A program made the position numbers and the translations under genes. Shown here piece by piece: positions 48,456-64,000 of a stretch of DNA of 64,000 nt (the first letter of the stretch is position 1; the number at the start of each line of letters is the position of its first letter). The DNA comes from Aquabacterium sp. A3 (lineage in GTDB: Bacteria; Pseudomonadota; Gammaproteobacteria; Burkholderiales; Burkholderiaceae_C): the NCBI RefSeq assembly GCF_038069945.1, contig NZ_JBBPEV010000001.1, positions 434,001-498,000 on the forward strand. The letters are read 5' to 3'. The notes beneath the pieces are model-generated. The model was not told the origin of the DNA. It ran no database searches and saw only the letters and a program-made list of their open reading frames with translations.

Positions 48456-51400
48456 TCAGATCAGCAAATTGCCATTCTGATCGTCCACCAGGCCCTTGAG
48501 CGGATCGCTGACCACTGAGACCGCAGCGCCACCATCGGACGTTGCCGGGACAGCGGCCGAAGCATCTGCGCCCTCGCCCTCGGCGGCCGCACTGTCAGGG
48601 GTGTTGTCCAGCGCCGCCAGGGCTTCGCTTTCCGGACCAGCGGCCAGGACATCGCCCATGGCCAACTCCTCCAGACTGGTGGCTTCACCCGGTGCCTTCT
48701 GGAACCAGACGTCGGCCATGTCGCGGGTCTCGCCTTCGGTGGTGGTGTAGCTGGAGACCAGGCCCAACAGGTTGCCGTTGTCCGTCTCGGTGCCCTGCTG
48801 TGCCCCGAGGTCCATCGACAGGATGCCCAGGTCGGCCAAAGACTTGAGCTCACCGGCGCCGGTCACCCCATCGCTGTTGGCATCTACCCAGACCTTCAGT
48901 TCATTGAACTTGGCGTCTGAGGCATCGATGACGCCGTTGCCGTCACTGTCGAGTTGGGCGAGCGCAGCATAACCATGCCCGGCACGCTGGCCGTTTTCCA
49001 GCTCCATCGCACCACCGAACAGCTCCTTGCCGTCGTTGATGATGCCGTCGCCGTTGCGATCCCAGACCAACAGGCCGTCGTCCTTGCCCACCCAGCCCAC
49101 CTGGCTGGCATTGCCCGTGGCATTGAGGTCAAAGTTGACGCCGTCCGACAGCGAGCGTGTTTCCACACCGTCTCCGTCCAGGTCAAGCACGATCGGTGTG
49201 GCACCAATCATGGCGTCGAGCTGCACCCCGCTCATCACCGCGACATCATCGGTCTCAAAGGCAGAGACCTGGGTCATGGACATGGCGGCGATGTCGGAGG
49301 TCTGCAGCACCGTGATCTGATCGGTGGTGAAGGCCACGATCTGGTCGGTGGTCAATGCCGCAGCCTGTGCCGTGGTCAGGGCCACGATCTGGTCGGTCGT
49401 CAGTGACTCGAACTGATCCGTGGTCAATGCCGCGATCTGGCTGGTGGTGAAGGCAGCGATTTGCGCCGTCCCCAGGGCCTGCAGGTCATCGGTCTCGATG
49501 GCCGCCACTTGCGCGGTGGTCATCGCAGCCACCTGAGCGGTGCTCAGCGCAGCGACCTGGTCGGTGCTCAAGGCCTCGACGGCATCGGTGGTCAGGCCAC
49601 GAATGGCCGCCGTGGTCAGGGCTTTGATGTCATCGGTCTCGATCGCAGCCACCTGATCGGTGGTCAACGCTGCGGCCTGGGCCGAGGTCAGCGCCTTGAT
49701 CTGGTTGGTGCCCATCGCGGCGATGTCGTCGGTCTCGATGGCTGCGATCTGGTCGGTCGTCATGGACGCCACCTGCGCCGAGGTCAGCGCACCGGCCTGG
49801 TCGGTGGTCAGCGCCTCGATCTGGTCGGTCGTCAGCGAGCGAACCTGGGCGGTGGTCAGGGCGGCGGTCTGGCTGGTGCTCAGCGCCTGCAGGTCATCGG
49901 TCTCGATGGCCGCCACCTGCGTGGTGGTCAGCGCCTTGATCTGCGCTGTGCCCAGCGCACCCACCTGGTCGGTGGTGAGTGCGGCGATACCGTCGGTGGT
50001 CAGGCCACGGATGGCCGCCGTCGTCAGTGCACCGATGTCGTCGGTCTCGATCGCGGCGACTTGATCCGTCGTCAAGGCGGCGGCCTGGGCCGAGCTCAGG
50101 GCCTTGACCTGCGTGCTGTTGAGCGCGGCGATGTCGTCGGTCTCGATGGCCGCCACTTGCGTGGTGGTCAAGGCTGCGACCTGGGCCGAGGTCAGCGCAC
50201 CCACCTGGTCGGTGGTCAGCGCGGCGATGCCGTCGGTGGTCAGGCCACGCACGGCCGCCGTGGTCAGGGCTTTGATGTCATCGGTTTCGATCGCGGCCAC
50301 CTGATCGGTGGTCAGCGCTGCAGCCTGGGCCGAGGTCAGCGCCTTGATCTGGTTGGTGCCCATCGCCGCAATGTCGTCGGTCTCGATGGCAGCGATCTGG
50401 TCGGTCGTCATGGACGCCACCTGCGCCGAGGTCAGCGCACCGGCCTGGTCGGTGGTCAGCGCCTCGATCTGGTCGGTGGTCAGCGAGCGAACCTGGGCGG
50501 TGGTCAGGGCAGCTGTCTGGCTGGTGCTCAGCGCCTGCAGGTCATCGGTCTCGATGGCCGCCACCTGCGTGGTGGTCAGCGCCTTGATCTGCGCTGTGCC
50601 CAGCGCACCCACCTGGTCGGTGGTGAGTGCGGCGATACCGTCGGTGGTCAGGCCACGGATGGCCGCCGTCGTCAGTGCACCGATGTCGTCGGTCTCGATC
50701 GCGGCGACTTGATCCGTCGTCAAGGCGGCGGCCTGGGCCGAGCTCAGGGCCTTGACCTGCGTGCTGTTGAGCGCGGCGATGTCGTCGGTCTCGATGGCCG
50801 CCACTTGCGTGGTGGTCAAGGCTGCGACCTGGGCCGAGGTCAGCGCACCCACCTGGTCGGTGGTCAGCGCGGCGATGCCGTCGGTGGTCAGGCCGCGCAC
50901 GGCCGCCGTGGTCAGGGCTTTGATGTCATCGGTTTCGATCGCGGCCACCTGATCGGTGGTCAACGCTGCGGCCTGGGCCGAGGTCAGCGCCTTGATCTGG
51001 TTGGTGCCCATCGCGGCGATGTCGTCGGTCTCGATGGCCGCCACTTGCGTGGTGGTCAGCGAGGCCACCTGCGCCGAGGTCAGTGCGCCCATTTGATCGG
51101 TGGTCAGCGCCTCGATCTGATCAGTTGACAAGGCCTTGATTTGCGCCGTTGTGAATGCCTTGATCTGGTTGGTGGTCATCGCCGCGAGACCGTCGGTGTT
51201 GATGGCCAGCACCTGACTGGTGGTCAACGCAGCAACCTGAGCGGTGGTGAACGCGGCCACCTGATCGGTGGACATCTCGTAGATGCCGACGGTATTCAGG
51301 CCACGCACTGCGGCGGTGGTCAAGGCCGCCAGATCATCGGTTTCAATCGCCGTGATCTGGTCGGTGGTGAGTGCAGCGGTTTGGGCCGAGCTCAGGGCTT

Positions 51401-54400
51401 TGACCTGGGTGGTGTTGAGTGCAGCGATGTCGTCGGTCTCGATGGCCGCCACTTGCGTGGTGGTCAAGGCTGCCACCTGGGCCGAGGTCAGCGCACCCAC
51501 CTGGTCGGTGGTCAGTGCGGTGATGCCGTCGGTGGTCAAGCCACGCACGGCCGCCGTGGTCAGGGCTTTGATGTCATCGGTCTCGATCGCGGCCACCTGA
51601 TCGGTGGTCAGCGCTGCGGCCTGGGCCGAGGTCAGCGCCTTGATCTGGTTGGTGCCCATCGCGGCGATGTCGTCGGTCTCGATGGCCGCCACTTGCGTGG
51701 TGGTCAGCGAAGCCACTTGCGCAGAGGTCAGTGCGCCCATCTGGTCGGTGGTCAGCGCCTCGATCTGGTCGGTCGTCAGCGAGCGAACCTGGGCTGTGGT
51801 CAGGGCAGCGGTCTGGCTGGTGCTCAGCGCCTGCAGGTCATCGGTCTCGATGGCCGCCACCTGGGTGGTGGTCAGCGCCTTGATCTGCGCTGTGCCCAGC
51901 GCACCCACCTGGTCGGTGGTGAGTGCGGCGATACCGTCGGTGGTCAGGCCACGGATGGCCGCCGTCGTCAGTGCACCGATGTCGTCGGTCTCGATCGCGG
52001 CGACTTGATCCGTCGTCAAGGCTGCGGCCTGGGCCGAGCTCAGGGCCTTGACCTGCGTGCTGTTGAGCGCGGCGATGTCGTCGGTCTCCACCGCAGCGAT
52101 CTGCGTGGTGGTCAGCGCCGCCACCTGGGCCGAGGTCAGCGCACCCACCTGGTCGGTGGTCAGTGCGGCGATGCCGTCGGTGGTCAGGCCACGCACGGCC
52201 GCCGTGGTCAGGGCCTTGATGTCATCGGTTTCGATCGCAGCAACCTGATCCGTCGTGAGCGCGGCCGCCTGGGCCGAGGTCAGCGCCTTGATCTGGTTCG
52301 TGCCCATCGCGGCGATGTCGTCGGTCTCGATGGCTGCGATCTGGTCGGTCGTCATGGACGCAACCTGGGCCGAGGTCAGCGCGCCCATTTGATCGGTGGT
52401 CAGGGCCTCGATCTGATGCGTGAACAATGCCTTGACTTGAGCTGTTGTGAGCGCCTTGACCTGGTCGGTGGTCAGCGCTGCGATGCCATCAGTGCTGAGG
52501 ACATTCACCTGGGTGGTGAGCAAGGCTGCCACTTGGGCCGTGGTGAGCGCCGCCACCTGATCGGTGGACATTTCAGAAATTCCGAGCGAACTGAGCCCTC
52601 GCACCGCGGCAGTGGTCAGCGCCGCCAGGTCATCGGTCTCGATGGCCACAATCTGGTCTGTGGTCAAAGCAGCCGTCTGAGCACTGCTCAGTGCACGGAA
52701 CTGCACGGTGGTCATGGCAGCGATGTCGTCGGTCTCGATGGCCGCCACTTGCGTGGTGGTCAGCGCCGCCACCTGGGCCGAGGTCAGCGCACCCACCTGG
52801 TCGGTGGTCAGTGCGGTGATGCCGTCGGTGGTCAGGCCACGCACGGCCGCCGTGGTCAGGGCCTTGATGTCATCGGTTTCGATCGCGGCCACCTGATCGG
52901 TGGTCAGCGCTGCGGCCTGGGCCGAGGTCAGCGCCTTGATCTGGTTCGTGCCCATCGCGGCGATGTCGTCGGTCTCGATGGCCGCCACTTGCGTGGTGGT
53001 CAGCGAAGCCACTTGCGCAGAGGTCAGTGCGCCCATCTGGTCGGTGGTCAGCGCCTCGATCTGGTCGGTGGTCAGCGAGCGAACCTGGGCGGTGGTCAGG
53101 GCCGCTGTCTGGCTGGTGCTCAGGGCCTGCAGGTCATCGGTTTCAATCGCCGCAACCTGGGTGGTGGTCAGCGCCTTGATCTGCGCCGTGCCCAGCGCAC
53201 CCACCTGGTCGGTGGTCAGTGCGGCGATGCCGTCGGTGGTCAGGCCACGGATGGCCGCCGTCGTCAGTGCACCGATGTCGTCGGTCTCGATGGCGGCGAC
53301 TTGATCCGTCGTCAAGGCTGCGGCCTGGGCCGAGCTCAGGGCCTTGACCTGCGTGCTGTTGAGCGCGGCGATGTCGTCGGTCTCGATGGCCGCCACTTGC
53401 GTGGTGGTCAAGGCTGCCACCTGGGCCGAGGTCAGCGCACCCACCTGGTCGGTGGTCAGCGCGGCGATGCCGTCGGTGGTCAGGCCACGCACGGCCGCCG
53501 TGGTCAGGGCCTTGATGTCATCGGTTTCGATCGCGGCCACCTGATCGGTGGTCAACGCTGCGGCTTGGGCCGAGGTCAGCGCCTTGATCTGGTTGGTGCC
53601 CATCGCGGCGATGTCGTCGGTCTCGATGGCTGCGATCTGGTCGGTCGTCATGGACGCCACCTGGGCCGAGGTCAGCGCACCGGCCTGGTCGGTGGTCAGG
53701 GCTTCGATCTGGTCGGTCGTCAGCGAGCGAACCTGGGCTGTGGTCAGGGCAGCTGTCTGGCTGGTGCTCAGGGCTTGCAGGTCATCGGTTTCGATGGCCG
53801 CCACCTGCGTGGTGGTCAGCGCCTTGATCTGCGCTGTGCCCAGCGCACCCACCTGGTCGGTGGTCAGTGCGGCGATGCCGTCGGTGGTCAGGCCACGGAT
53901 GGCCGCCGTCGTCAGTGCACCGATGTCGTCGGTCTCGATGGCGGCGACTTGATCCGTCGTCAAGGCTGCGGCCTGGGCCGAGCTCAGGGCCTTGACCTGC
54001 GTGCTGTTGAGCGCGGCGATGTCGTCGGTCTCGATGGCCGCCACTTGCGTGGTGGTCAAGGCTGCCACCTGGGCCGAGGTCAGCGCACCCACCTGGTCGG
54101 TGGTCAGCGCGGCGATGCCGTCGGTGGTCAGGCCACGCACGGCCGCCGTGGTCAGGGCCTTGATGTCATCGGTTTCGATCGCGGCCACCTGATCGGTGGT
54201 CAACGCTGCGGCTTGGGCCGAGGTCAGCGCCTTGATCTGGTTGGTGCCCATCGCGGCGATGTCGTCGGTCTCGATGGCTGCGATCTGGTCGGTCGTCATG
54301 GACGCCACCTGGGCCGAGGTCAGCGCACCGGCCTGGTCGGTGGTCAGGGCTTCGATCTGGTCGGTCGTCAGCGAGCGAACCTGGGCTGTGGTCAGGGCAG

Positions 54401-57368
54401 CTGTCTGGCTGGTGCTCAGGGCTTGCAGGTCATCGGTTTCGATGGCCGCCACCTGCGTGGTGGTCAGCGCCTTGATCTGCGCTGTGCCCAGCGCACCCAC
54501 CTGGTCGGTGGTCAGTGCGGCGATGCCGTCGGTGGTCAGGCCACGGATGGCCGCCGTCGTCAGTGCACCGATGTCGTCGGTCTCGATCGCGGCGACTTGA
54601 TCCGTCGTCAAGGCTGCGGCCTGGGCCGAGCTCAGCGCCTTGACCTGCGTGCTGTTGAGCGCGGCAATGTCGTCGGTCTCGATGGCCGCCACTTGCGTGG
54701 TGGTCAAGGCTGCCACCTGGGCCGAGGTCAGCGCACCCACCTGGTCGGTGGTCAGTGCGGCGATGCCGTCGGTGGTCAGGCCACGCACGGCCGCCGTGGT
54801 CAGGGCTTTGATGTCATCGGTTTCGATCGCGGCCACCTGATCAGTGGTCAGCGCTGCAGCCTGGGCCGAGGTCAGCGCCTTGATCTGGTTGGTGCCCATC
54901 GCGGCGATGTCGTCGGTCTCGATCGCAGCGATCTGGTCGGTCGTCATGGACGCCACCTGGGCCGAGGTCAGCGCACCGGCCTGGTCGGTGGTCAGCGCCT
55001 CGATCTGGTCGGTCGTCAGCGAGCGAACCTGGGCGGTGGTCAGGGCAGCGGTCTGGCTGGTGCTCAGCGCCTGCAGGTCATCGGTTTCGATGGCCGCCAC
55101 CTGCGTGGTGGTCAGCGCCTTGATCTGCGCTGTGCCCAGCGCACCCACCTGGTCGGTGGTCAGTGCTGCGATGCCGTCGGTGGTCAGGCCACGGATGGCC
55201 GCCGTCGTCAGTGCACCGATGTCGTCGGTCTCGATCGCGGCGACTTGATCCGTCGTCAAGGCTGCGGCCTGGGCCGAGCTCAGGGCCTTGACCTGCGTGC
55301 TGTTGAGCGCGGCGATGTCGTCGGTCTCCACCGCAGCGATCTGCGTGGTGGTCAGCGCCGCCACCTGGGCCGAGGTCAGCGCACCCACCTGGTCGGTGGT
55401 CAGTGCGGCGATGCCGTCGGTGGTCAGGCCGCGCACGGCCGCCGTGGTCAGGGCTTTGATGTCATCGGTCTCGATCGCGGCCACCTGATCGGTGGTCAGC
55501 GCTGCGGCCTGGGCCGAAGTCAGCGCCTTGATCTGGTTCGTGCCCATCGCGGCGATGTCGTCGGTTTCGATGGCCGCCACTTGCGTGGTGGTCAGCGCGG
55601 CCACTTGCGCAGAGGTCAGTGCGCCCATCTGGTCGGTGGTCAGCGCCTCGATCTGGTCGGTGGTCAGCGAGCGAACCTGGGCGGTGGTCAGGGCAGCTGT
55701 CTGGCTGGTGCTCAGCGCCTGCAGGTCATCGGTCTCGATGGCCGCCACCTGCGTGGTGGTCAGCGCCTTGATCTGCGCCGTGCCCAGCGCACCCACCTGG
55801 TCGGTGGTGAGTGCGGCGATGCCGTCGGTGGTCAGGCCACGGATGGCCGCCGTCGTCAGTGCACCGATGTCGTCGGTCTCGATGGCAGCGACTTGATCCG
55901 TCGTCAAGGCAGCCACCTGGGCTGAATTCATGCCACGCAACTGAACGCTGGTAAACGCAGCGACGTCATCGGTTTCAATGGCGCTCACTTGGGTGGTGGT
56001 GAACGCACCCGCCTGGGCACTGACCAAAGACCCCACCTGCTCGGTCGTCAGCGCAACGACCTGGTCGGTGGTCAGGGCACGGATCTGGGCCGTGGTCACT
56101 GCCTTGATCTGGTCGGTGGTCAGGGCTTGAATGTCATCAGTCTCGATCGCTGCGACCTGAGTGGTGCTGAGCGACTTCACCTGCGTCGTTGTCAAGGCGG
56201 CGGCCTGATCAGTGGTCAGCGCAGCCACGCCGTCGGTGCTCAGCCCTTTGAGCGCAGCGGTGGTCAGCACGCGCAGGTCATCGGTTTCGACCGCCTGAAC
56301 CTGGTCTGTGTTGAAGGCTGCAACCTGAGCACTGCTGAGGACCGCAAACTGGCTCGTCCCCAAGGCTGCCACGTCATCTGTCTCGATCGCAGCCACCTGC
56401 GTGGTGCTCAACGCTTTGACCTGCGCCGTACCCAACGCGGCCACCTGGTCAGTGGTCAGCGACACCACCCCATCTGTGGTCAAGCCGCGAACCGCTGCGG
56501 TGCTCAACGCCCCGATGTCATCGGTTTCAATGGCCTGGACTTGATCCGTGCTCAATGCAGCGGCCTGGGATGACGTCAACGCCTTGATCTGGGTGGTACC
56601 CATGGCGGCGATGTCATCGGTCTCGATCGCGCCGATCTGCGTGGTCGTGAATGCTGCGGTCTGCGCGCTCGTCAGGCTGCTGATCTGATCGGTGGTCAGG
56701 GCCTCTACCTGATCCGTCACCAGGGCCTTGATCTGCGCCGAGGTCATGGACTTGATCTGATCAGTGCTCATGGCCTGCAGATCGTCGGTCTCGACCGCCG
56801 CGACCTGTGCCGTCGACAACGACTTGACCTGCGTGGTACTGAGTGCCGCGACCTGATCCGTGCTCAAGGCCACCACCCCATCAGTGGTCAGGCCTTTGAG
56901 TGCTGCGGTCGTGATGACAGAAATCTCGTCCGTTCCGATGGCGCCGATCTGGTCCGTCGACAGGGCCTTGACCTGAACACTGGTCAAGGCCTTGACTTGC
57001 TCGGTTCCCATGGCCGCGATGTCATCGGTTTCGATGGCAGCGATCTGGGTTGTCGTGAAGGCGCCCACCTGGCGCGATGTCAGTGCAGTGACCTGATCGG
57101 TCGTCAGGGCCTCGACCGCATCGGTGCTCAGCGCACGAACCTGGATGGTCGACAGCGTCCGGATCTGATCGGTTCCAAAGGCCTGAATCTGCGATGAATT
57201 CAGCGTCGCAATGTCGGCGGTTTCGATCACCTTGACCTGAGTGGTGGTGAGTGCCGCAATCTGATCGGTCGTGAACGCCGCCCAGTCTTCCGTGGTGAGT
57301 TTGATGATCGACGTGGTCGACAGTGCTGCAATCTGGTCGGTGCTCAACGACTCGATGATGGACGCCAT
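48456..57368 (-). CDS. giant threonine-rich octad-repeat protein, probable type I-secreted surface protein
   Basis: A 2970-residue protein. Six residues precede 339 uninterrupted octads (residues 7-2718) of the type A-L-T-T-x-Q-V-A, with a recurring acidic variant AIETDDIA and a variant GLTTDGIA. The remaining ~250 residues begin TPIVLDLDGDGVETRSL (T2724) and carry four calcium-loop-like motifs: LDLDGDGVE, DRNGDGIINDG, DSDGNGVIDASD and DANSDGVTGAG. An Ala/acidic tail ends in hydrophobic GNLLI. There is no N-terminal signal peptide and I see no cysteine in the repeats. The DGDG cassette is common near the C-terminus of RTX-type proteins exported by type I systems, and a TolC-family gene lies at the right edge. 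AGGGGGAA precedes the ATG. Divergent glycosyltransferase genes suggest that the Thr-rich array is O-glycosylated. Adhesin, filament or sheath roles are all possible. Confidence 0.85.
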   Translation of the reverse strand: MASIIESLSTDQIAALSTTSIIKLTTEDWAAFTTDQIAALTTTQVKVIETADIATLNSSQIQAFGTDQIRTLSTIQVRALSTDAVEALTTDQVTALTSRQVGAFTTTQIAAIETDDIAAMGTEQVKALTSVQVKALSTDQIGAIGTDEISVITTAALKGLTTDGVVALSTDQVAALSTTQVKSLSTAQVAAVETDDLQAMSTDQIKSMTSAQIKALVTDQVEALTTDQISSLTSAQTAAFTTTQIGAIETDDIAAMGTTQIKALTSSQAAALSTDQVQAIETDDIGALSTAAVRGLTTDGVVSLTTDQVAALGTAQVKALSTTQVAAIETDDVAALGTSQFAVLSSAQVAAFNTDQVQAVETDDLRVLTTAALKGLSTDGVAALTTDQAAALTTTQVKSLSTTQVAAIETDDIQALTTDQIKAVTTAQIRALTTDQVVALTTEQVGSLVSAQAGAFTTTQVSAIETDDVAAFTSVQLRGMNSAQVAALTTDQVAAIETDDIGALTTAAIRGLTTDGIAALTTDQVGALGTAQIKALTTTQVAAIETDDLQALSTSQTAALTTAQVRSLTTDQIEALTTDQMGALTSAQVAALTTTQVAAIETDDIAAMGTNQIKALTSAQAAALTTDQVAAIETDDIKALTTAAVRGLTTDGIAALTTDQVGALTSAQVAALTTTQIAAVETDDIAALNSTQVKALSSAQAAALTTDQVAAIETDDIGALTTAAIRGLTTDGIAALTTDQVGALGTAQIKALTTTQVAAIETDDLQALSTSQTAALTTAQVRSLTTDQIEALTTDQAGALTSAQVASMTTDQIAAIETDDIAAMGTNQIKALTSAQAAALTTDQVAAIETDDIKALTTAAVRGLTTDGIAALTTDQVGALTSAQVAALTTTQVAAIETDDIAALNSTQVKALSSAQAAALTTDQVAAIETDDIGALTTAAIRGLTTDGIAALTTDQVGALGTAQIKALTTTQVAAIETDDLQALSTSQTAALTTAQVRSLTTDQIEALTTDQAGALTSAQVASMTTDQIAAIETDDIAAMGTNQIKALTSAQAAALTTDQVAAIETDDIKALTTAAVRGLTTDGIAALTTDQVGALTSAQVAALTTTQVAAIETDDIAALNSTQVKALSSAQAAALTTDQVAAIETDDIGALTTAAIRGLTTDGIAALTTDQVGALGTAQIKALTTTQVAAIETDDLQALSTSQTAALTTAQVRSLTTDQIEALTTDQAGALTSAQVASMTTDQIAAIETDDIAAMGTNQIKALTSAQAAALTTDQVAAIETDDIKALTTAAVRGLTTDGIAALTTDQVGALTSAQVAALTTTQVAAIETDDIAALNSTQVKALSSAQAAALTTDQVAAIETDDIGALTTAAIRGLTTDGIAALTTDQVGALGTAQIKALTTTQVAAIETDDLQALSTSQTAALTTAQVRSLTTDQIEALTTDQMGALTSAQVASLTTTQVAAIETDDIAAMGTNQIKALTSAQAAALTTDQVAAIETDDIKALTTAAVRGLTTDGITALTTDQVGALTSAQVAALTTTQVAAIETDDIAAMTTVQFRALSSAQTAALTTDQIVAIETDDLAALTTAAVRGLSSLGISEMSTDQVAALTTAQVAALLTTQVNVLSTDGIAALTTDQVKALTTAQVKALFTHQIEALTTDQMGALTSAQVASMTTDQIAAIETDDIAAMGTNQIKALTSAQAAALTTDQVAAIETDDIKALTTAAVRGLTTDGIAALTTDQVGALTSAQVAALTTTQIAAVETDDIAALNSTQVKALSSAQAAALTTDQVAAIETDDIGALTTAAIRGLTTDGIAALTTDQVGALGTAQIKALTTTQVAAIETDDLQALSTSQTAALTTAQVRSLTTDQIEALTTDQMGALTSAQVASLTTTQVAAIETDDIAAMGTNQIKALTSAQAAALTTDQVAAIETDDIKALTTAAVRGLTTDGITALTTDQVGALTSAQVAALTTTQVAAIETDDIAALNTTQVKALSSAQTAALTTDQITAIETDDLAALTTAAVRGLNTVGIYEMSTDQVAAFTTAQVAALTTSQVLAINTDGLAAMTTNQIKAFTTAQIKALSTDQIEALTTDQMGALTSAQVASLTTTQVAAIETDDIAAMGTNQIKALTSAQAAALTTDQVAAIETDDIKALTTAAVRGLTTDGIAALTTDQVGALTSAQVAALTTTQVAAIETDDIAALNSTQVKALSSAQAAALTTDQVAAIETDDIGALTTAAIRGLTTDGIAALTTDQVGALGTAQIKALTTTQVAAIETDDLQALSTSQTAALTTAQVRSLTTDQIEALTTDQAGALTSAQVASMTTDQIAAIETDDIAAMGTNQIKALTSAQAAALTTDQVAAIETDDIKALTTAAVRGLTTDGIAALTTDQVGALTSAQVAALTTTQVAAIETDDIAALNSTQVKALSSAQAAALTTDQVAAIETDDIGALTTAAIRGLTTDGIAALTTDQVGALGTAQIKALTTTQVAAIETDDLQALSTSQTAALTTAQVRSLTTDQIEALTTDQAGALTSAQVASMTTDQIAAIETDDIAAMGTNQIKALTSAQAAALTTDQVAAIETDDIKALTTAAIRGLTTDAVEALSTDQVAALSTAQVAAMTTAQVAAIETDDLQALGTAQIAAFTTSQIAALTTDQFESLTTDQIVALTTAQAAALTTDQIVAFTTDQITVLQTSDIAAMSMTQVSAFETDDVAVMSGVQLDAMIGATPIVLDLDGDGVETRSLSDGVNFDLNATGNASQVGWVGKDDGLLVWDRNGDGIINDGKELFGGAMELENGQRAGHGYAALAQLDSDGNGVIDASDAKFNELKVWVDANSDGVTGAGELKSLADLGILSMDLGAQQGTETDNGNLLGLVSSYTTTEGETRDMADVWFQKAPGEATSLEELAMGDVLAAGPESEALAALDNTPDSAAAEGEGADASAAVPATSDGGAAVSVVSDPLKGLVDDQNGNLLI
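49215..57350 (-). repeat. 339 tandem 24-bp units encoding octads
   Basis: The 8136 bases divide exactly into 339 units of 24 bases without a single frame-breaking insertion or deletion. Position 2 of the octad is hydrophobic (L, M, F or I), position 4 is usually T, position 6 is mostly Q (D in the ETDD type), and position 7 is V, I or L. Thr-x-x-Gln could cap a short helix, or the units could form strands of a solenoid; sequence alone does not settle this. The N-terminal ~60 units are the most diverged from one another, the central units the most alike. Confidence 0.9.
49600..55910 (-). repeat. 648-bp higher-order repeat (27 octads per unit)
   Basis: Within the octad array the sequence repeats with a period of 648 bases, 216 residues. 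Equivalent positions fall at 49660, 50308, 50956, 51604, 52252, 52900, 53548, 54196, 54844 and 55492. Each unit holds five ETDD octads spaced 6, 4, 6, 7 and 4 octads apart and two AA[VI]R-GLTTDG pairs. The units in phases 50956 and 52252 carry a diverged stretch of about nine and thirteen octads, but keep the exact length. The ends of the array given here are approximate. Confidence 0.85.
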
Positions 57369-57681
57369 GATTCCCCCTGATGGGCCGATGGAAACTCAAA
57401 ATCCAGTCAAACAAGCATGACTGGGTCAACGATCTGTGGCAGCGTACGAACAGATGACCTGCTGGCATCGCGGAATAAGCTGGGCCAATGCCGCGCTATC
57501 CCGTATGGCGATCTGTCAACTTCGACACTCCTGTCGGCTTATCGACGCCGTGGCGGGGCACTTGAGGCGAGATGAAAAAAACTTGGCCCCAAAAGTTCAT
57601 GCCGAGGTGCAAAAAAGTGCACGAATCAAACGGGGCATCGGGGGCTTTTTCAGCGTTTCACGACGCGGGGGCCGTCACAAG
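57369..57681. promoter_or_regulatory. 313-base divergent region between the repeat gene and the glycosyltransferase operon
   Basis: It separates two divergently transcribed genes, so it should hold both promoters. The first eight or so bases contain the Shine-Dalgarno of the repeat gene. The right half (about 57570-57640) is richer in A, with runs such as GATGAAAAAAAC and GCAAAAAAGTGCAC, unlike the GC-rich surroundings. A plus-strand frame stays open here back to 57436 and could extend the glycosyltransferase, but its residues look non-coding. I see no clear sigma-70 boxes or operator. Confidence 0.5.
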
Positions 57682-59637
57682 ATGTCGGAAGTACCTCCAG
57701 AACGCCTTCGCACCATGTCCGACACCGTGATCAGCCCGCGCATGAAAACCAATCCGGAACAGCCCGCCGCCCCGACCGATCTGGTGATGCAGGGCATTCA
57801 GCTGCAAAGCCAGGGGCAAGACGTTGCCGCCGAAGCCAAGTTCAGGCAAAAACTGGCGCTCACGCCGCTGGACCCGCTGGCGGTGTATTCCCTTTGCGTG
57901 ATCCTCATGAAGCGAGGCGCCATTGACGAGGCGCTGGCCCTGTTGAATCCATGTGCGGCACAGAACCCCTCCTTTGCGCCGGTGTGGGTGGCCTACGGCT
58001 CGGCCCTTCAGGCCAAAGGAGACCGACACCGTGCCATCAGCGCGTATGAACACGCCCTGAGCATCAAACCCGACTACATCGAGGCGCTGATCAACAGCGG
58101 CGCCTTGCTGCGTGAAACGCACCAACACGCCAAGGCACTGGAGCGCTTCCAGAAAGCCTTGGAGATCAAGCCAGACCACCAAAACGCCATCGGCAACTGC
58201 GCCATCTTGCTGACCGAGTTCAAGCGCGCAGAAGAATCCATCGCGATGTTCCAGCGTCTGCTGAGCATCAATCCGGATTACGACTATGGCCTGGGCATGT
58301 TGTGCTACGAGCGCATGCACGTATGCGACTGGACCGATTTCGATGAAACACGTTCGCAGATCATGGCGGGCGTCAAAGCAGGGCACCGCACATGCAAGTC
58401 GCTGGGTTTCATGGCCTTGTCTGACGAGGCACAGGACCACCAGACCTGCGCACGCACGTTCGCGCAGCGATTTCCCGCCATGGACACGCCGTTGTGGCAA
58501 GGTCAGCGCTATCGCCACGACCGGATACGCATCGCCTACGTCTCGGCAGACTTGCGCGAGCACCCGGTTGGCCACCTCATGGCGGGCATCTTCGAGCATC
58601 ACGATCGTGAGCGCTTCGAAACCGTCGCCATCTCGATCGGCATCAATGACCAGTCCCGTTTGCGTCACCGCATGGAAAACGCCTTCGAACACTTCATCGA
58701 CGCCCGGGGCATGAACACACGCGACATCGCCCAGAAGATGCGAGACATGGAGGTCGACATCGCGATCGATCTGGGCGGCTACACCTCCGACTCGCGCTCG
58801 GACATTTTCGCGTGGCGACCTGCACCCGCCCAGGTGAACTACCTCGGCTACCCAGGCACCATGGGTCTGCCGTACATGGACTACATCATTGCCGACCGCC
58901 AGGTGATCCCGCCAGAACATCAGCAGTTTTATGACGAAAAGGTGGTGTACCTGCCTGACGCCTACCTGCCGACGGATGTCAGCATTCAAATTGCCGAAGA
59001 CACGCCCAGCAGGGCCGCATGCGGACTGCCTGACGACGCCGTGGTGTTCTGCTCGTTCAACCACGACTACAAAATCGCACCCCATGTTTTTGCGGTGTGG
59101 ATGAACATCCTCAAACAGGTGCCCCACAGCGTGTTGTGGCTCATGTCGCGCAACGACACTTCTCAGCGCAACCTGCGTCAACACGCACAGTCCCACGGTG
59201 TCGATCCAGAACGTCTGGTGTTTGCCAAGCGCGTGCCAAGGGTGGAAGACCACCTGGCCCGCTACCGTCAAGCCGACCTCTTCCTGGACACCCACCCCTA
59301 CAACGCACACACCACGGCCGCCGACGCATTGATGGCCGGGCTGCCCGTGCTGACCTACATGGGCGAAGCGTTCCCTGCCCGGGTGGCCGGCAGCCTGTTG
59401 CACACCATCGGGCTGCCCGAGCTCATCACCCACAGCCTGGACGACTATCAACGCCGTGCGGTGGAACTGGCCCTGGACGCGAACCAGCGCCAAGCGCTGC
59501 GGGCCAAGCTGGCCCAGAACAAGCAGCACAGCCCGCTGTTCGACACTCGGCAGTTCTGCCGCCACCTCGAAGCCATTTACACCAGCATGTGGCGTCAGCA
59601 ACAACTGGGTAGGCTGGGCGATCAACTGGGTGCTTGA
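57682..59637 (+). CDS. TPR-containing GT41 (OGT/SPINDLY-like) O-glycosyltransferase
   Basis: A 651-residue predicted cytoplasmic protein glycosyltransferase. About five tetratricopeptide repeats occupy residues ~35-205 (for example ISAYEHALSIKPDYIEALIN and ALERFQKALEIKPDHQNAIG). The catalytic half begins near residue 285 with RIRIAYVSADLREHPVGHL and includes VNYLGYPGTMGLPYMDYIIA, VVFCSFNHDYKIAPHVFAVW and DLFLDTHPYNAHTTAADALM followed by AGLPVLTYMGEAFPARVAGS, all typical of GT41. Such enzymes transfer sugars to Ser/Thr of proteins. The start could instead be ATG 57715 or 57742. It leads the operon that diverges from the Thr-rich repeat protein, its likely acceptor. Confidence 0.87.
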   Translation: MSEVPPERLRTMSDTVISPRMKTNPEQPAAPTDLVMQGIQLQSQGQDVAAEAKFRQKLALTPLDPLAVYSLCVILMKRGAIDEALALLNPCAAQNPSFAPVWVAYGSALQAKGDRHRAISAYEHALSIKPDYIEALINSGALLRETHQHAKALERFQKALEIKPDHQNAIGNCAILLTEFKRAEESIAMFQRLLSINPDYDYGLGMLCYERMHVCDWTDFDETRSQIMAGVKAGHRTCKSLGFMALSDEAQDHQTCARTFAQRFPAMDTPLWQGQRYRHDRIRIAYVSADLREHPVGHLMAGIFEHHDRERFETVAISIGINDQSRLRHRMENAFEHFIDARGMNTRDIAQKMRDMEVDIAIDLGGYTSDSRSDIFAWRPAPAQVNYLGYPGTMGLPYMDYIIADRQVIPPEHQQFYDEKVVYLPDAYLPTDVSIQIAEDTPSRAACGLPDDAVVFCSFNHDYKIAPHVFAVWMNILKQVPHSVLWLMSRNDTSQRNLRQHAQSHGVDPERLVFAKRVPRVEDHLARYRQADLFLDTHPYNAHTTAADALMAGLPVLTYMGEAFPARVAGSLLHTIGLPELITHSLDDYQRRAVELALDANQRQALRAKLAQNKQHSPLFDTRQFCRHLEAIYTSMWRQQQLGRLGDQLGA

Positions 59638-59640
59638 GCC

Positions 59641-60759
59641 ATGAGCATCAACAAGGCACAACATGCGCTGCTCAAGGGCAACCTGCAGCTGACCGATCTG
59701 ATCACGCGCCAAATATTGATGCAAGAACCTGAGCACCCTCAGGCCCTGCAAGTGCGCAAGGCACTGGTCGCCGCGGTGGGTCAACCGCAGTGGCACGCGG
59801 ACGACCAACACTTCTTGTTGATCAAGGCCTGGGGCTTCGGTTTCTGGTCAGATCTTGATCACGTGCTGGGCAGCCTGTTGCTGGCCGAGCTGACCGGGCG
59901 GACACCGGTGGTTCACTGGGGGCGCAACAGCCTGTTTCGCGACCCCGATACCCCCAACGCCTTCGAGCACTACTTTCAACCGGTATCGTCCACCACGCTG
60001 GCCAACCTGATGGCACCAGGCACCAGCTACTACCCCCCTAAGTGGAATGCGGGCAACCTGCACGTTGAGGAGCTCGACAAGTGGTCCGGCCCGGGTTCTC
60101 GGATGACGGGCCTGTACTTCCTGCGTCGGCCCGAGCATGTGGTGGTCTCGGACTTTCACATCAAAGTCAACGACCTCATGCCCTGGATTCCTGAAGGCTC
60201 CGAATGGCATGGCATGAGTCGCCAGGCCATCTACCGGCGGCTGGTCAGCCGATACATTCGGCTTCAACCTGCACGACAACAGGCGATCGACGCCGTGTGG
60301 CAGCGTCTGTTTGAAGGACATCAGTGGCTGGCCGTGCACGTCAGGGGTACCGACAAGGCACTGGAGCTCACGCAACTGAGCGAGGTCAACCGGGCCTACC
60401 ACCGCTCCATCGACCGCATCCTGTCGGTCAACCCCGATCTGAAGATATTCCTGCTCACCGACAGCACCGAAACGGTCAGCGAATTTCAGGGCCTCTGGGG
60501 TGACCGGATCACCTGCCTGGATGCCCTGCGCGGACAGGGCCTGCAGGGCGTTCACTTATCAGGCCATCCCGGACTACTGATGGGCGAACAGGTCCTCACG
60601 GATGCGTTCCTGGCCGCGCGGTGTGACATGTTCCTGGGCAACGGCGCCTCCAACGTCTCTACCGGCATCCGACACCTCAAGGACTGGCCTGCCGGCAGCT
60701 TCTTCTTGCTGGGGGCCGACTTTCTCGACCAGCTCGACACCTCACTGCACGACTGGTGA
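59641..60759 (+). CDS. fucosyltransferase-like protein (GT23/NodZ-like)
   Basis: A 372-residue soluble protein, three bases after the GT41 stop. HVRGTDK at residues 233-239 matches the GDP-fucose-binding HxRxTDK motif of alpha-1,6-fucosyltransferases and NodZ. FLLTDSTETVSEFQ and the late MFLGNGASNVSTGIRHL correspond to the other two motifs of that fold. The N-terminal ~50 residues look helical, perhaps a half TPR. The nucleotide sugar need not be GDP-fucose. Operon position suggests that it extends or modifies the glycan started by the GT41 enzyme. Confidence 0.72.
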   Translation: MSINKAQHALLKGNLQLTDLITRQILMQEPEHPQALQVRKALVAAVGQPQWHADDQHFLLIKAWGFGFWSDLDHVLGSLLLAELTGRTPVVHWGRNSLFRDPDTPNAFEHYFQPVSSTTLANLMAPGTSYYPPKWNAGNLHVEELDKWSGPGSRMTGLYFLRRPEHVVVSDFHIKVNDLMPWIPEGSEWHGMSRQAIYRRLVSRYIRLQPARQQAIDAVWQRLFEGHQWLAVHVRGTDKALELTQLSEVNRAYHRSIDRILSVNPDLKIFLLTDSTETVSEFQGLWGDRITCLDALRGQGLQGVHLSGHPGLLMGEQVLTDAFLAARCDMFLGNGASNVSTGIRHLKDWPAGSFFLLGADFLDQLDTSLHDW

Positions 60760-60764
60760 CACAC

Positions 60765-62678
60765 ATGAGTCAGAAACAGGCACTCAGGTTGGTGATCGAT
60801 GGCGTGTTCTTCCAGATCGGGCGATCCGGTATCGCGCGCGTATGGCAAAAGATCTTCGAGCACTGGATCCGAACGGGCTTCAGCGAGCACGTGGTGGTGC
60901 TGGACCGGGCCGGCACCCTGCCCAGGATGCCGGGCCTGATCACGATGTCGCTGCCTGGGTTTGACTATGCCCACCAGGCGCGTGATCGACTACTGCTGCA
61001 ACAAGCCTGTGATGCGGCGGGCGCCACCGTGTTCATGTCCACCTATTACACGATGCCGGTGTACACCCCGTCGTTGATGATGGTGCACGACATGATTCCA
61101 GAAGTGCTGCAATGGAATCTTGACGAGCCCATGTGGCGCCAAAAGCAGGAGGCCCTGCAATACGCCAGCGGCTACCTGGCGGTGTCACACAACACGGCCT
61201 CCGATCTGCAAAGCCATCTGGCCGGCTGCCTGAACCGAACGAACCCGGACATTCAGGTGGCCAGAGCAGGTTGCGACTTCCGCCCTGCCCCACTGGAGCA
61301 CGTCGAAGAGCTGCGGCATCGTCTTGGACTGGAGCGCCCCTACTTCATGTTGTCGGGCACCCGCACCGACTACAAGAACGCCGCCCTGTTCTTCGAGGCG
61401 TTTGCCAACCTGGGAGACGAACGCGCCAAGCTGAGCGTGCTGTGCACCGGAGGGGGCGACATCGATCCCGCCTTCATCCAGTTGGCCGGGCCGGCAGAGG
61501 TGCGCGGCACCATCTTGAACGATTACGACATGATGGCCGCCTACAGCGGCGCCTTGGCACTGGTCTACCCGTCTCGGTACGAGGGCTTTGGCCTGCCGGT
61601 GCTGGAGGCGATGGCCTGTGGCGCACCGGTGATTTGCTCCAATGCGGCCTCCTTGCCTGAAGTCGGTGGGCCAGCGCCCCTGTACATCGACCTCGAAGAC
61701 CAGGCCATTGAGCAGTTGACCGAACAGCTGCGCGCCGTTCAGCACGCCCAGGTTCGCGAAGAACGCATCGCACTGGGGTTGATCCAGGCTGCCAGCTTCT
61801 CATGGGCCAGCATGGCTGAACATGTCATGCGCCGCGCCCAACACCTCCACGACGAACTGCACCCGGATGCCGCCACCCAACAGCGTGGGCACCTCACCCG
61901 GGTGGGGCGTTTTGCTCAGTGGCTGCCTCGCACGCACGACATCGAATCGGCACGGCGAGAGCACCCGCTCTTCACGGGCATGTGGCGCCACCTTGCACGC
62001 AGCTTGCCAGCGCACAGCGAAGTCTGGGACCTGGAAGCCGGGCATGGCGAGTTGTTGGCCCTGATCAGCTCCGAACGGTCAGACATTCACCTCACATGCC
62101 ACGAGCTGGATGCACGGGCCATGTCCTTCCTGGACATCAACCTTCATCGGATGGCGCACGAGTTGCAGCAAGCCCCCGTGGTGCTGTCGCGCCACCAGGT
62201 ACTGGACCCTGCCCTGACGCTGCGTGATCGGTCGCCCACACCGGCGGGCTGTACCTGGCTGCGTGTGTGCGGAGAATCAGGTGCCCTGGAGTTTGAGCTC
62301 ACTGCAGCATGGCTGCAGGCGCTGCAGCCAGACATTGTTCAAACCGCCTACCGCGGTGGCGCCGCCAGCGCGCCGCAGCGTGCCGTGATTTCGCAGCTGC
62401 CCGAGTGGCACATGGCGCAGCATTGGGTGTTCGACAACTACGGCAACCTCATGCTGCAGACCGCATCGATCGAGGCCGTGCTGGCCTTGTGCGACTACCT
62501 GGACCGGCAGGCCAACGGCCACGCCAGCCGCAGCATCTACCAACTGGACATCCTGTCGTGCCGGGACGCGGCCTGCGCGGTGTGCCATCAGGCCGCCACG
62601 CAGCACCTGTCGCGCGAACACGTCCTCGTCCCAGAATCGAGCTCACACGTCGATCTGACAGAAAGACTGGCTGCATGA
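60765..62678 (+). CDS. GT4 glycosyltransferase with C-terminal methyltransferase-like domain
   Basis: A 637-residue protein. Residues 1 to ~370 form a GT4 (GT-B) glycosyltransferase: [41 protein letters not shown] and the nucleotide-sugar site [20 protein letters not shown]. From about residue 400 a second domain starts [20 protein letters not shown], resembling the SAM-binding opening of FkbM-type methyltransferases. It ends with a Cys-rich tail ([11 protein letters not shown]). ATG 60765 is used; an in-frame GTG at 60756 overlaps the preceding stop. The fusion could add and methylate a sugar. The methyltransferase call is the weaker half. Confidence 0.78.
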
Positions 62679-63469
62679 AAACACCCTACTTCACCATCAT
62701 CATGCCCACGCACCGGCGCGCTGCGCTCTTGCGACGCTCACTGGGCAGTCTGCGATCCAACGACTTCAAAGACTTCCAGATCATCCTGGTGGCCGATGAG
62801 ACGGACGCAGCCACCATGCAGGTGGCGGCCGAGTTGCTGGGCGATGACGATCTGTTCATCAAACGCAGTGGACCCAAAGGCCCCGCCGGCAGCCGCAACC
62901 TTGGCATGGACCTGGCTCAAGGTCAGCGCATCATCTTTCTGGACGACGACGACGCGTTTCTGCCTCACTACCTGGGGCAGATGCACACGCTGTGCGAGCG
63001 CCATCCCCATGAGATCTTGTACGGCGACTTTCGCGTCATCGAGGAAGACCGCGAACAACCCCAGGCTCCAGCGCTGTCCGTTCAAGACTACAGCGTCGAA
63101 GGAATGAATCCGGAGACCATCTATGTCAAGAACTTCATACACAACCACACGGCCGTGTTTCCCCGGCACATGCTGCAGGGCAAACGGCAGGACGTGTACC
63201 TGTCGAGCCTGGAGGACTGGGACTTCCTGCTGTCGGTGAAGCACGAGTTTCCGGTGCGCCACTGCCCGGTACTGGGTGCAGTGATCTACAAGGATCGCGT
63301 CAACCCCGGCAATCGGCGCAGCACCACGCAACAAGCCAAAGATGCCACCGTCATTTCGGATTACCTCAGCATCTACAAGAAGTGGCGCGCCCCGACCGAA
63401 GCACTGAAGCTGGAGCGTCAAAAGTTGCTCACCAGCGTGGGCTTCACGCCGCCACTGGAATGGCTCTGA
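62675..63469 (+). CDS. GT2-family glycosyltransferase
   Basis: A 264-residue GT-A glycosyltransferase. PYFTIIMPTHRRAALLRRSL opens the fold, GPAGSRNLGMDLAQGQRIIF leads to the metal-binding IFLDDDDAFLPHYL, and LEDWDFLLSVKHEF carries the catalytic-region acidic pair. The ATG overlaps the preceding stop (ATGA), so it is the fourth and last gene of the glycosylation operon. A weak hairpin follows it. Donor and acceptor are unknown. Confidence 0.88.
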   Translation: MKTPYFTIIMPTHRRAALLRRSLGSLRSNDFKDFQIILVADETDAATMQVAAELLGDDDLFIKRSGPKGPAGSRNLGMDLAQGQRIIFLDDDDAFLPHYLGQMHTLCERHPHEILYGDFRVIEEDREQPQAPALSVQDYSVEGMNPETIYVKNFIHNHTAVFPRHMLQGKRQDVYLSSLEDWDFLLSVKHEFPVRHCPVLGAVIYKDRVNPGNRRSTTQQAKDATVISDYLSIYKKWRAPTEALKLERQKLLTSVGFTPPLEWL

Positions 63470-63484
63470 TCCGTGCGTGACGAC

Positions 63485-63504
63485 AGGGCGCCAACCGGCG
63501 CCCT
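63485..63504. terminator. hairpin between convergent GT2 and TolC-family genes
   Basis: AGGGCGCC (63485-63492) pairs perfectly with GGCGCCCT (63497-63504) across an AACC loop. It lies between two convergent stop codons and so could terminate both. No T tract follows on either strand. Confidence 0.5.
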
Positions 63505-63507
63505 GGT

Positions 63508-64000
63508 TCATTGGGGCCGCAACCAGCCCAGCACACCACCACCCAGCGACCGCATCTGCGAATTGGCCAGGTAGCCGTCATACAGCGCATTGACGTAGGC
63601 CACCCGAAGGTTGAAGTGATCGCTTTCAGAAGACATCACATCGAACAGCGAGCGGCGACCCAGTTGGGCCCATTGTTGAAACGTGGCCTGGCGCACCCTG
63701 TCGCTTTCGCGAAGCACGTCCACCAGGCGCCGTGCACGGTCGAAGGCCGACGTGGCAGCCTCATGCAGCTCGCCCACCCGGGCCACCCTCATATTGGTGA
63801 ACTCTTCATACTGAAAGCGCGCAGCCTCTGCCCGACGCACCGCGGCCAGTGACGCCGACTCGGTGGCGCCGCCGTCAAACAGGTTGTAGCTCAAGGAGAC
63901 GCCGGCCTGCACACTGGCTGCCTTGTCTTCGCCGCGCCAACTGCCCGAGCCGGTGACCACCCAGTTCAGCTGTGGCCGCTGCGCTGCCGAGGTCACCGCC
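63508..64000 (-). CDS. TolC-family outer membrane channel, C-terminal part
   Basis: About 163 residues of a TolC-like outer-membrane efflux protein are visible; the 5' part lies beyond the right edge. The piece VQAGVSLSYNLFDGGATES is the typical beta-strand/turn of the second TolC half. FTNMRVARVGELHEAATSAFD and the QWAQLGRRSLFDVMSSESD region correspond to its long helices, and the end is WLRPQ. Its place beside the repeat protein suggests a type I secretion channel for it. The matching ABC exporter and membrane-fusion protein would be expected just outside the window. Confidence 0.82.
   Translation of the reverse strand, partial: AVTSAAQRPQLNWVVTGSGSWRGEDKAASVQAGVSLSYNLFDGGATESASLAAVRRAEAARFQYEEFTNMRVARVGELHEAATSAFDRARRLVDVLRESDRVRQATFQQWAQLGRRSLFDVMSSESDHFNLRVAYVNALYDGYLANSQMRSLGGGVLGWLRPQ

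Follow-up and report, generated by a model that had tools for sequence, protein, structure and literature searches.

Introduction

Serine-rich-repeat glycoproteins of Gram-positive bacteria are giant repeat proteins that come with linked glycosyltransferases and an export machinery of their own, the accessory Sec system. To our knowledge, the substrates of bacterial OGT-like GT41 enzymes are poorly known. The nearest analogue of the locus described here is the HMW1A/B/C system of Haemophilus influenzae. There, as described in PMC3983070, the cytosolic GT41-family enzyme HMW1C modifies a very large protein that is secreted by an exporter specific to it. HMW1C forms N-linkages with Asn and has an AAD in place of a TPR domain, and its substrate leaves the cell through Sec and a TPS pore. 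In Caulobacter, FlmG, a cytosolic enzyme with TPR and GT-B domains, O-glycosylates the exported flagellin before export, as described in part of PMC7591256. TtOGT showed no activity on the peptides tried, as far as the excerpted text of PMC4683255 reports.

The stretch analyzed here, which we call the window, comprises 64,000 nucleotides of Aquabacterium sp. A3 (assembly GCF_038069945.1, contig NZ_JBBPEV010000001.1, positions 434,001 to 498,000 of the forward strand). Like HMW1ABC, its locus joins a GT41-family enzyme to a giant, predicted secreted protein and an exporter, whereas its GT41 is of the TPR/OGT type, the predicted substrate is a solenoid of Ser/Thr octads and the linked exporter is of type I. 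The window GT41 can be likened to FlmG by description, which differs in its flagellin substrate, in its sugar (pseudaminic acid) and in the use of flagellar export. Among bacterial relatives of the window GT41 with a solved structure, XcOGT scores highest (337 bits), and, in contrast to XcOGT and TtOGT, the window GT41 has a candidate substrate encoded next door. Compared with the serine-rich-repeat glycoproteins, the repeat, the fold and the enzymes are all different, and the linked exporter is of type I instead of accessory Sec. A search of the open-licence literature found no paper on ALTTAQ (PF20080), on glyco-adhesins of type I secretion systems, or on an OGT-type GT41 joined to type I secretion. 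We regard the locus as a variant of dedicated adhesin-type glycosylation, and there is a fair chance that it represents a new class.

Structure of the giant octad protein

The giant gene occupies 48456..57368 on the minus strand (ORF and Pfam match), and its product is a predicted O-glycoprotein and type I secretion substrate. The original prediction had described a protein of 2970 residues with 339 Thr-rich octads, and the ORF, the count and the strict register were all reproduced, the octads running in a single unbroken register through residues 8-2719 (49212..57347, minus strand). Position 1 of the octad is L, I, M, F or V; position 2 is T, S, G or N in 276 of the 339 octads and E in 58; position 5 is Q or D in 288. 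Position 3, the predicted acceptor site, is Thr in 281 octads and Ser in 56, that is, Ser/Thr in 337 of 339. The protein matches the Pfam family PF20080 (ALTTAQ_rpt) in 92 stretches with E=0 and 2663.6 bits against a cut-off of 26.4. The middle of the octad region is built of super-repeats of 216 aa, equal to 27 octads or 648 bp. Antisense ORFs of 134 aa recur on the plus strand at 49660-55896, spaced by multiples of 648 bp, and these seem to arise from the 216-aa super-repeat and not to be genes. A genome of the same genus carries two giant ALTTAQ genes in tandem (L006-L008, G159:C1:637374-661300), with ORFs of 3672 and 4243 aa.

The C-terminal region (48459..49199, minus strand) consists of an FrpC-SPM-like module and a low-confidence tail ending in NLLI, probably a region for Ca2+-folding and export. 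The DGDG cassette originally noticed here proved to be a homologue of the self-processing module (SPM) of Neisseria FrpC, by sequence (E=3.9e-41; about 49% identity over about 170 residues) as well as by fold (E=1.8e-15 against 6sjw, the FrpC self-processing module). FrpC has the cleavage Asp, and its side chain is the attacking group of the clip-and-link reaction, as stated in an excerpt of PMC7078468, whereas the window module has Thr there. None of the 22 aligned rows has the scissile Asp-Pro bond where the module begins, the residue preceding the key Pro being Thr or Ser in 22 of 22. Because the scissile Asp is replaced, clip-and-link of the FrpC type is not expected and a Ca2+-folding role is likelier. 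EF-hand matches occur in 11 of the 22 aligned relatives and not in the window protein, for which we infer a Ca2+-driven folding of the module. Modules with Thr/Ser for the scissile Asp, present at 48459-49199(-) of the window and in 21 other rows, apparently form a non-cleaving branch of FrpC-SPM, judging from the alignment. The SPM-like module and the hydrophobic end only suggest, from sequence, a type I export signal of the window protein.

AlphaFold (22 sequences) places one short helix in each octad, with block pLDDT values of 82-98 over the repeat region. The helix starts at octad position 3 in 21 of 21 helices, so that in the AF2 prediction position 3 is the helix N1 residue and position 2 the N-cap. 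A fold search for a known relative of this octad solenoid gave weak matches only (mesothelin, E=2e-3; TM under 0.45), and no known fold was assigned.

Glycosyltransferase operon and type I exporter

Divergently from the giant gene, the original prediction had read an operon of GT41, a fucosyltransferase-like gene, GT4 with a methyltransferase-like domain, and GT2; the four genes stand, and only the methyltransferase-like part of the GT4 protein was not confirmed, its match (E=0.007) falling below the Pfam cut-off. The GT41 gene (57715..59637, plus strand) encodes an OGT-like protein with TPR and GT-B parts, the predicted initiating O-glycosyltransferase. Its program-called start, GTG 57436, is probably too early, and ATG 57682 or 57715 is likelier, which leaves about 310-350 bp between the divergent genes; with the start at 57715, the intergenic region 57369..57714 would probably contain the promoters of both units. 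GT41 is followed on the same strand by a NodZ-like (fucosyltransferase-like) enzyme predicted to act in glycan extension (59641..60759; PF05830, E=3.3e-7, 29.9 bits against a cut-off of 28.3), the GT4 glycosyltransferase, whose C-terminal extension has an unproven likeness to methyltransferases (60756..62678), and the GT2 glycosyltransferase (62675..63469; Pfam E=1.8e-21), which starts at about 62675 rather than at 62309.

The GT41 protein, the sole GT41 locus found by the search of its own genome, matches PF13844 with E=1.1e-93 and 314.8 bits (cut-off 25), together with several TPR models over their cut-offs. The HMW1C/NGT subfamily was not indicated, the score for the N-glucosyltransferase model NF049992 being 40.1 bits against a cut-off of 1000. 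The catalytic Lys (human K842) is kept, FNHDYK aligning with FNQLYK of human OGT, and so is the His-Thr-Thr motif (human H920-T922), where NAHTT aligns with NGHTT; the human residue numbers are from an excerpt of PMC4683255. Operon-type relatives of this GT41 have Gly in place of the His of that motif. Opposite human C917 the window GT41 has Tyr, as do the fucosyltransferase SPY and XcOGT according to PMC9715652, and it is therefore unsure whether UDP-GlcNAc or another sugar nucleotide is its donor.

A TolC-family outer-membrane gene had been noted beside the operon, and it is present on the minus strand at 63508..64000, running on to window-equivalent 64893 (PF02321 OEP, 58.2 bits against a cut-off of 22), although it scores under the cut-off of the TolC subfamily model TIGR01844 (52.5 against 225.15 bits). 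The ABC exporter and membrane-fusion gene sought to the right of the window are both there and over cut-off, also on the minus strand: HlyD follows the TolC-family gene at window-equivalent 64883-66112 (TIGR01843, 328.3 bits against 208.65), and an LssB-type ABC exporter comes next at 66116-68503 (TIGR03375, 797.1 bits against 693.1). The type I system at the window locus is thus complete, with ABC, HlyD and TolC-family genes encoded together.

Linkage of ALTTAQ and GT41 genes

In a sample of 250 genomes of the same family, ALTTAQ was found in 66 (the window's own included) and GT41 in 151. The expected co-occurrence of the octad family with GT41 was borne out: 65 of the 66 ALTTAQ genomes have GT41, compared with 86 of the 184 genomes without ALTTAQ (Fisher p=2e-16), the exception being G024, in which ALTTAQ is present and GT41 was not found. 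Linkage was counted in the 49 of 66 ALTTAQ genomes that had coordinates of both, and six of these (G241, G028, G127, G195, G173, G101) were excluded because they were contig ends or fragments. In 36 of the 43 judged genomes, from 26 genera, GT41 and ALTTAQ are no more than 32 kb apart, where about 1.4 would be expected under uniform placement; two others have GT41 at 54 and 64 kb, and five are unlinked on long contigs. In 16 genomes, a methylmalonyl-CoA mutase gene adjoins the ALTTAQ locus (L023:13033-15252 and relatives in 15 others), which indicates one inherited chromosomal site, so that the 36 linkages are not fully independent; five of these mutase-site genomes (G154, G218, G236, G149, G233) are not linked within 32 kb. 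Other recurrent neighbors are a methyltransferase-domain protein in 7 genomes and a 361-aa protein without Pfam match in 12, the neighbor clustering being cluttered by antisense frames.

At many loci of the family, GT41 is located inside the exporter operon, in the order GT41-ABC-HlyD-TolC. The order GT41-ABC-HlyD was found in 15 of 15 genomes in which we read around GT41 genes that were distant from ALTTAQ or not covered by the first stretches read, with a TolC match in 11; these figures refer to chosen GT41s rather than to every one, and at five other GT41 loci of the same genomes (L088, L089, L091, L093, L101) no HlyD was found beside GT41.

A tree of 43 GT41 proteins, from which two GT41 ORFs of over 1000 aa were left out, gathered 28 exporter-operon GT41s in one clade (support 100/99). 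A second clade (100/100) holds six window-type GT41s, none of them more than 5 kb away from ALTTAQ. Of eight further GT41s, seven belong to neither clade, and the same is true of that of G056, whose row is labelled exporter-linked; the eighth, the GT41 of G151, which lies beside ALTTAQ, is sister to the operon-type clade. Single ORFs of 2022 to 3781 aa with several GT41 modules in a row were also observed (G162:C1:1039187-1045675; G243:C13:33885-38843; G214:C84:1212-5918; L188, G352:C92:25253-36595), and that of L188 (3781 aa) adjoins an ALTTAQ giant.

In named genomes, window-type GT41 (at least 58% identity) has ALTTAQ in the flank read at 28 of 39 loci, and ALTTAQ and/or type I genes at 35 of 39; neither was found at four loci (L118, L127, L129, L141), and for two of these the contig is shorter than 5 kb. 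Below 50% identity, ALTTAQ was found at 2 of 40 loci (L140, L147). The nearest named relatives of the window locus are from Aquabacterium. At L105 and L107, ALTTAQ is followed divergently by GT41, NodZ-like and GT4 genes, and then by TolC, HlyD and ABC; L149 has the same order with no GT4 detected, and GT2 was not detected at any of these three loci.

Other families of the phylum show the coupling too. Among 398 genomes drawn from the whole phylum, ALTTAQ was found in 24 in addition to the window's own, and 18 of the 24 have GT41, which directly follows ALTTAQ in G592 and G612. Five genomes of one distant family carry repeat giants (ORFs of 1968-6436 aa) near GT41, in three of them also beside HlyD and ABC; the multi-module GT41 ORF of 3781 aa comes from this group. 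The six ALTTAQ genomes without GT41 comprise five with one ALTTAQ match and G630 with 18. The Caulobacter vibrioides control genome has matches to both ALTTAQ (PF20080) and GT41 (PF13844).

Octad position 3 tracks the adjacent GT41 in a second family

The coupling has exceptions: genomes with ALTTAQ and without GT41 number one (G024) in the window's family, 6 of 24 phylum-wide and 8 of 29 in a second family, where 29 of 218 genomes have ALTTAQ, 21 with GT41 and 8 without (G630 is in both this and the phylum draw). In this second family, the octad register was set without the use of positions 2-4, and the Ser/Thr fraction was computed per position over the best PF20080-matching segment. At position 3, it averages 0.74 (0.57-0.86) at 14 GT41-adjacent loci vs 0.29 (0.11-0.52) in the 8 GT41-less genomes, without overlap (p=6e-6). 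By genus means (10 vs 6), with phylogeny handled by genus averaging alone, the difference persists (p=2.5e-4). Outside this main comparison are five segments at contig edges or from second copies (0.70-0.94) and three genomes with GT41 elsewhere (0.19-0.39). In longer stretches of 17 second-family loci the order is kept and the gap is narrow, the lowest linked value being 0.61 and the highest GT41-less value 0.59.

The other positions behave differently from position 3 in this family: the Ser/Thr fraction at position 2 is 0.75 vs 0.68 (p=0.04; p=0.21 at the genus level), and positions 4-8 do not differ with and without GT41 (p 0.11 or more). Position 3 is often Ala or Pro in the GT41-less proteins, and the Pro and Ala there suggest that a hydroxyl at position 3 is not needed for the repeat. 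None of the 17 second-family loci read has an SPM-like tail, nor was an HlyD match found alongside, and the position-3 test thus rests on proteins with a presumably different export route. The ALTTAQ proteins of this family mostly end alike with and without GT41; an AAY-like tail is usual (L194-L195, L231-L248).

In the window's own family, the median position-3 Ser/Thr fraction is 0.95 (0.61-1.00; 58 ORFs, 35 genomes). In G024, where GT41 was not found, the fraction is 0.64, measured on 22 octads beside a contig edge; this value counts against the glycosylation reading. In the phylum draw, GT41-less G441 has 0.00 over 20 octads.

Proposed mechanism and alternative explanations

The gene content, the complete exporter, the recurrent linkage, the covariation of position 3 in the second family and the predicted fold make it quite probable that the locus is dedicated to glycosylation and secretion. 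After synthesis of the giant protein in the cytosol, the linked GT41 would place sugars on hundreds of octads, in each case on the position-3 Ser/Thr with which the short helix begins, a chemistry and a sugar that we infer, and the NodZ-like, GT4 and GT2 enzymes would extend the glycan. The neighboring LssB-type ABC/HlyD/TolC channel would then export the protein, guided by the C-terminal FrpC-SPM-like module of the protein, and this module would fold on extracellular Ca2+. Outside the cell, the product would form an extended alpha-solenoid coated with sugars, probably with adhesion, matrix or surface-layer roles. The original proposal of a repeat protein modified by glycosyltransferases and then exported is supported by the complete exporter, by the GT41 linkage and by the tracking of adjacent GT41 by position-3 Ser/Thr, although the mutase site common to 16 genomes slightly lowers our confidence in it. 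We also lean towards a broader reading, in which OGT-type GT41s in type I operons would decorate octad position 3 of giant alpha-solenoids hundreds of times before export, as a widespread class of O-glycosylation.

An ordinary type I-secreted giant, in which the Thr octads are structural helix caps and the glycosyltransferases make a surface polysaccharide or modify another protein such as flagellin, is an unlikely explanation. Polysaccharide loci commonly contain GT4, GT2 and NodZ-like enzymes, the operon glycosyltransferases do have weak matches of this kind, and Ser/Thr at position 2 persists whether or not GT41 is present, as expected of a helix N-cap. Capping does not, however, predict that position-3 Ser/Thr follows the adjacent GT41. 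It also counts against this explanation that, in various genera and families, GT41 is found next to ALTTAQ or within the exporter operon. For flagellin, FlmG offers a precedent, a cytosolic TPR and GT-B enzyme that glycosylates the Caulobacter protein (excerpt of PMC7591256). That the proximity of GT41 and ALTTAQ reflects only inherited synteny or a common surface-variation island is highly improbable: the mutase neighbor shared by 16 genomes and the variation of gene order between lineages would fit it, but two GT41 clades are involved, the operon-type GT41 remains with the exporter even where ALTTAQ is distant, and linkage by itself would not alter octad position 3.

A further possibility, which we regard as doubtful and which is a variant of the glycosylation-and-secretion reading with overlapping odds, is that GT41 modifies the octads mainly as an intracellular aid to solubility or folding, with little function of the glycan outside. 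Excerpts of PMC3983070 discuss stability and chaperone roles of HMW1C, and note that processed HMW1 reaches the supernatant without HMW1C; in line with such a role, many ALTTAQ loci gave no match to NodZ-like or GT4 genes. Against it, the window and Aquabacterium loci L105-L108 retain the NodZ-like and GT4 genes after GT41 in the same order.

Significance

The locus brings together, in a single cluster, a candidate substrate with its candidate acceptor residue and an exporter, and several families contain related loci. If the broader reading is true, a major substrate of bacterial OGT homologues would be encoded in genetic linkage with them, and glycosylation would have left an evolutionary record at octad position 3. 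If the glycosylation-and-secretion reading of the locus is true, type I secretion would join the export routes that are coupled to dedicated cytosolic glycosylation, and a regular scaffold with a glycan every eight residues would be of interest to glycobiology and biomaterials.
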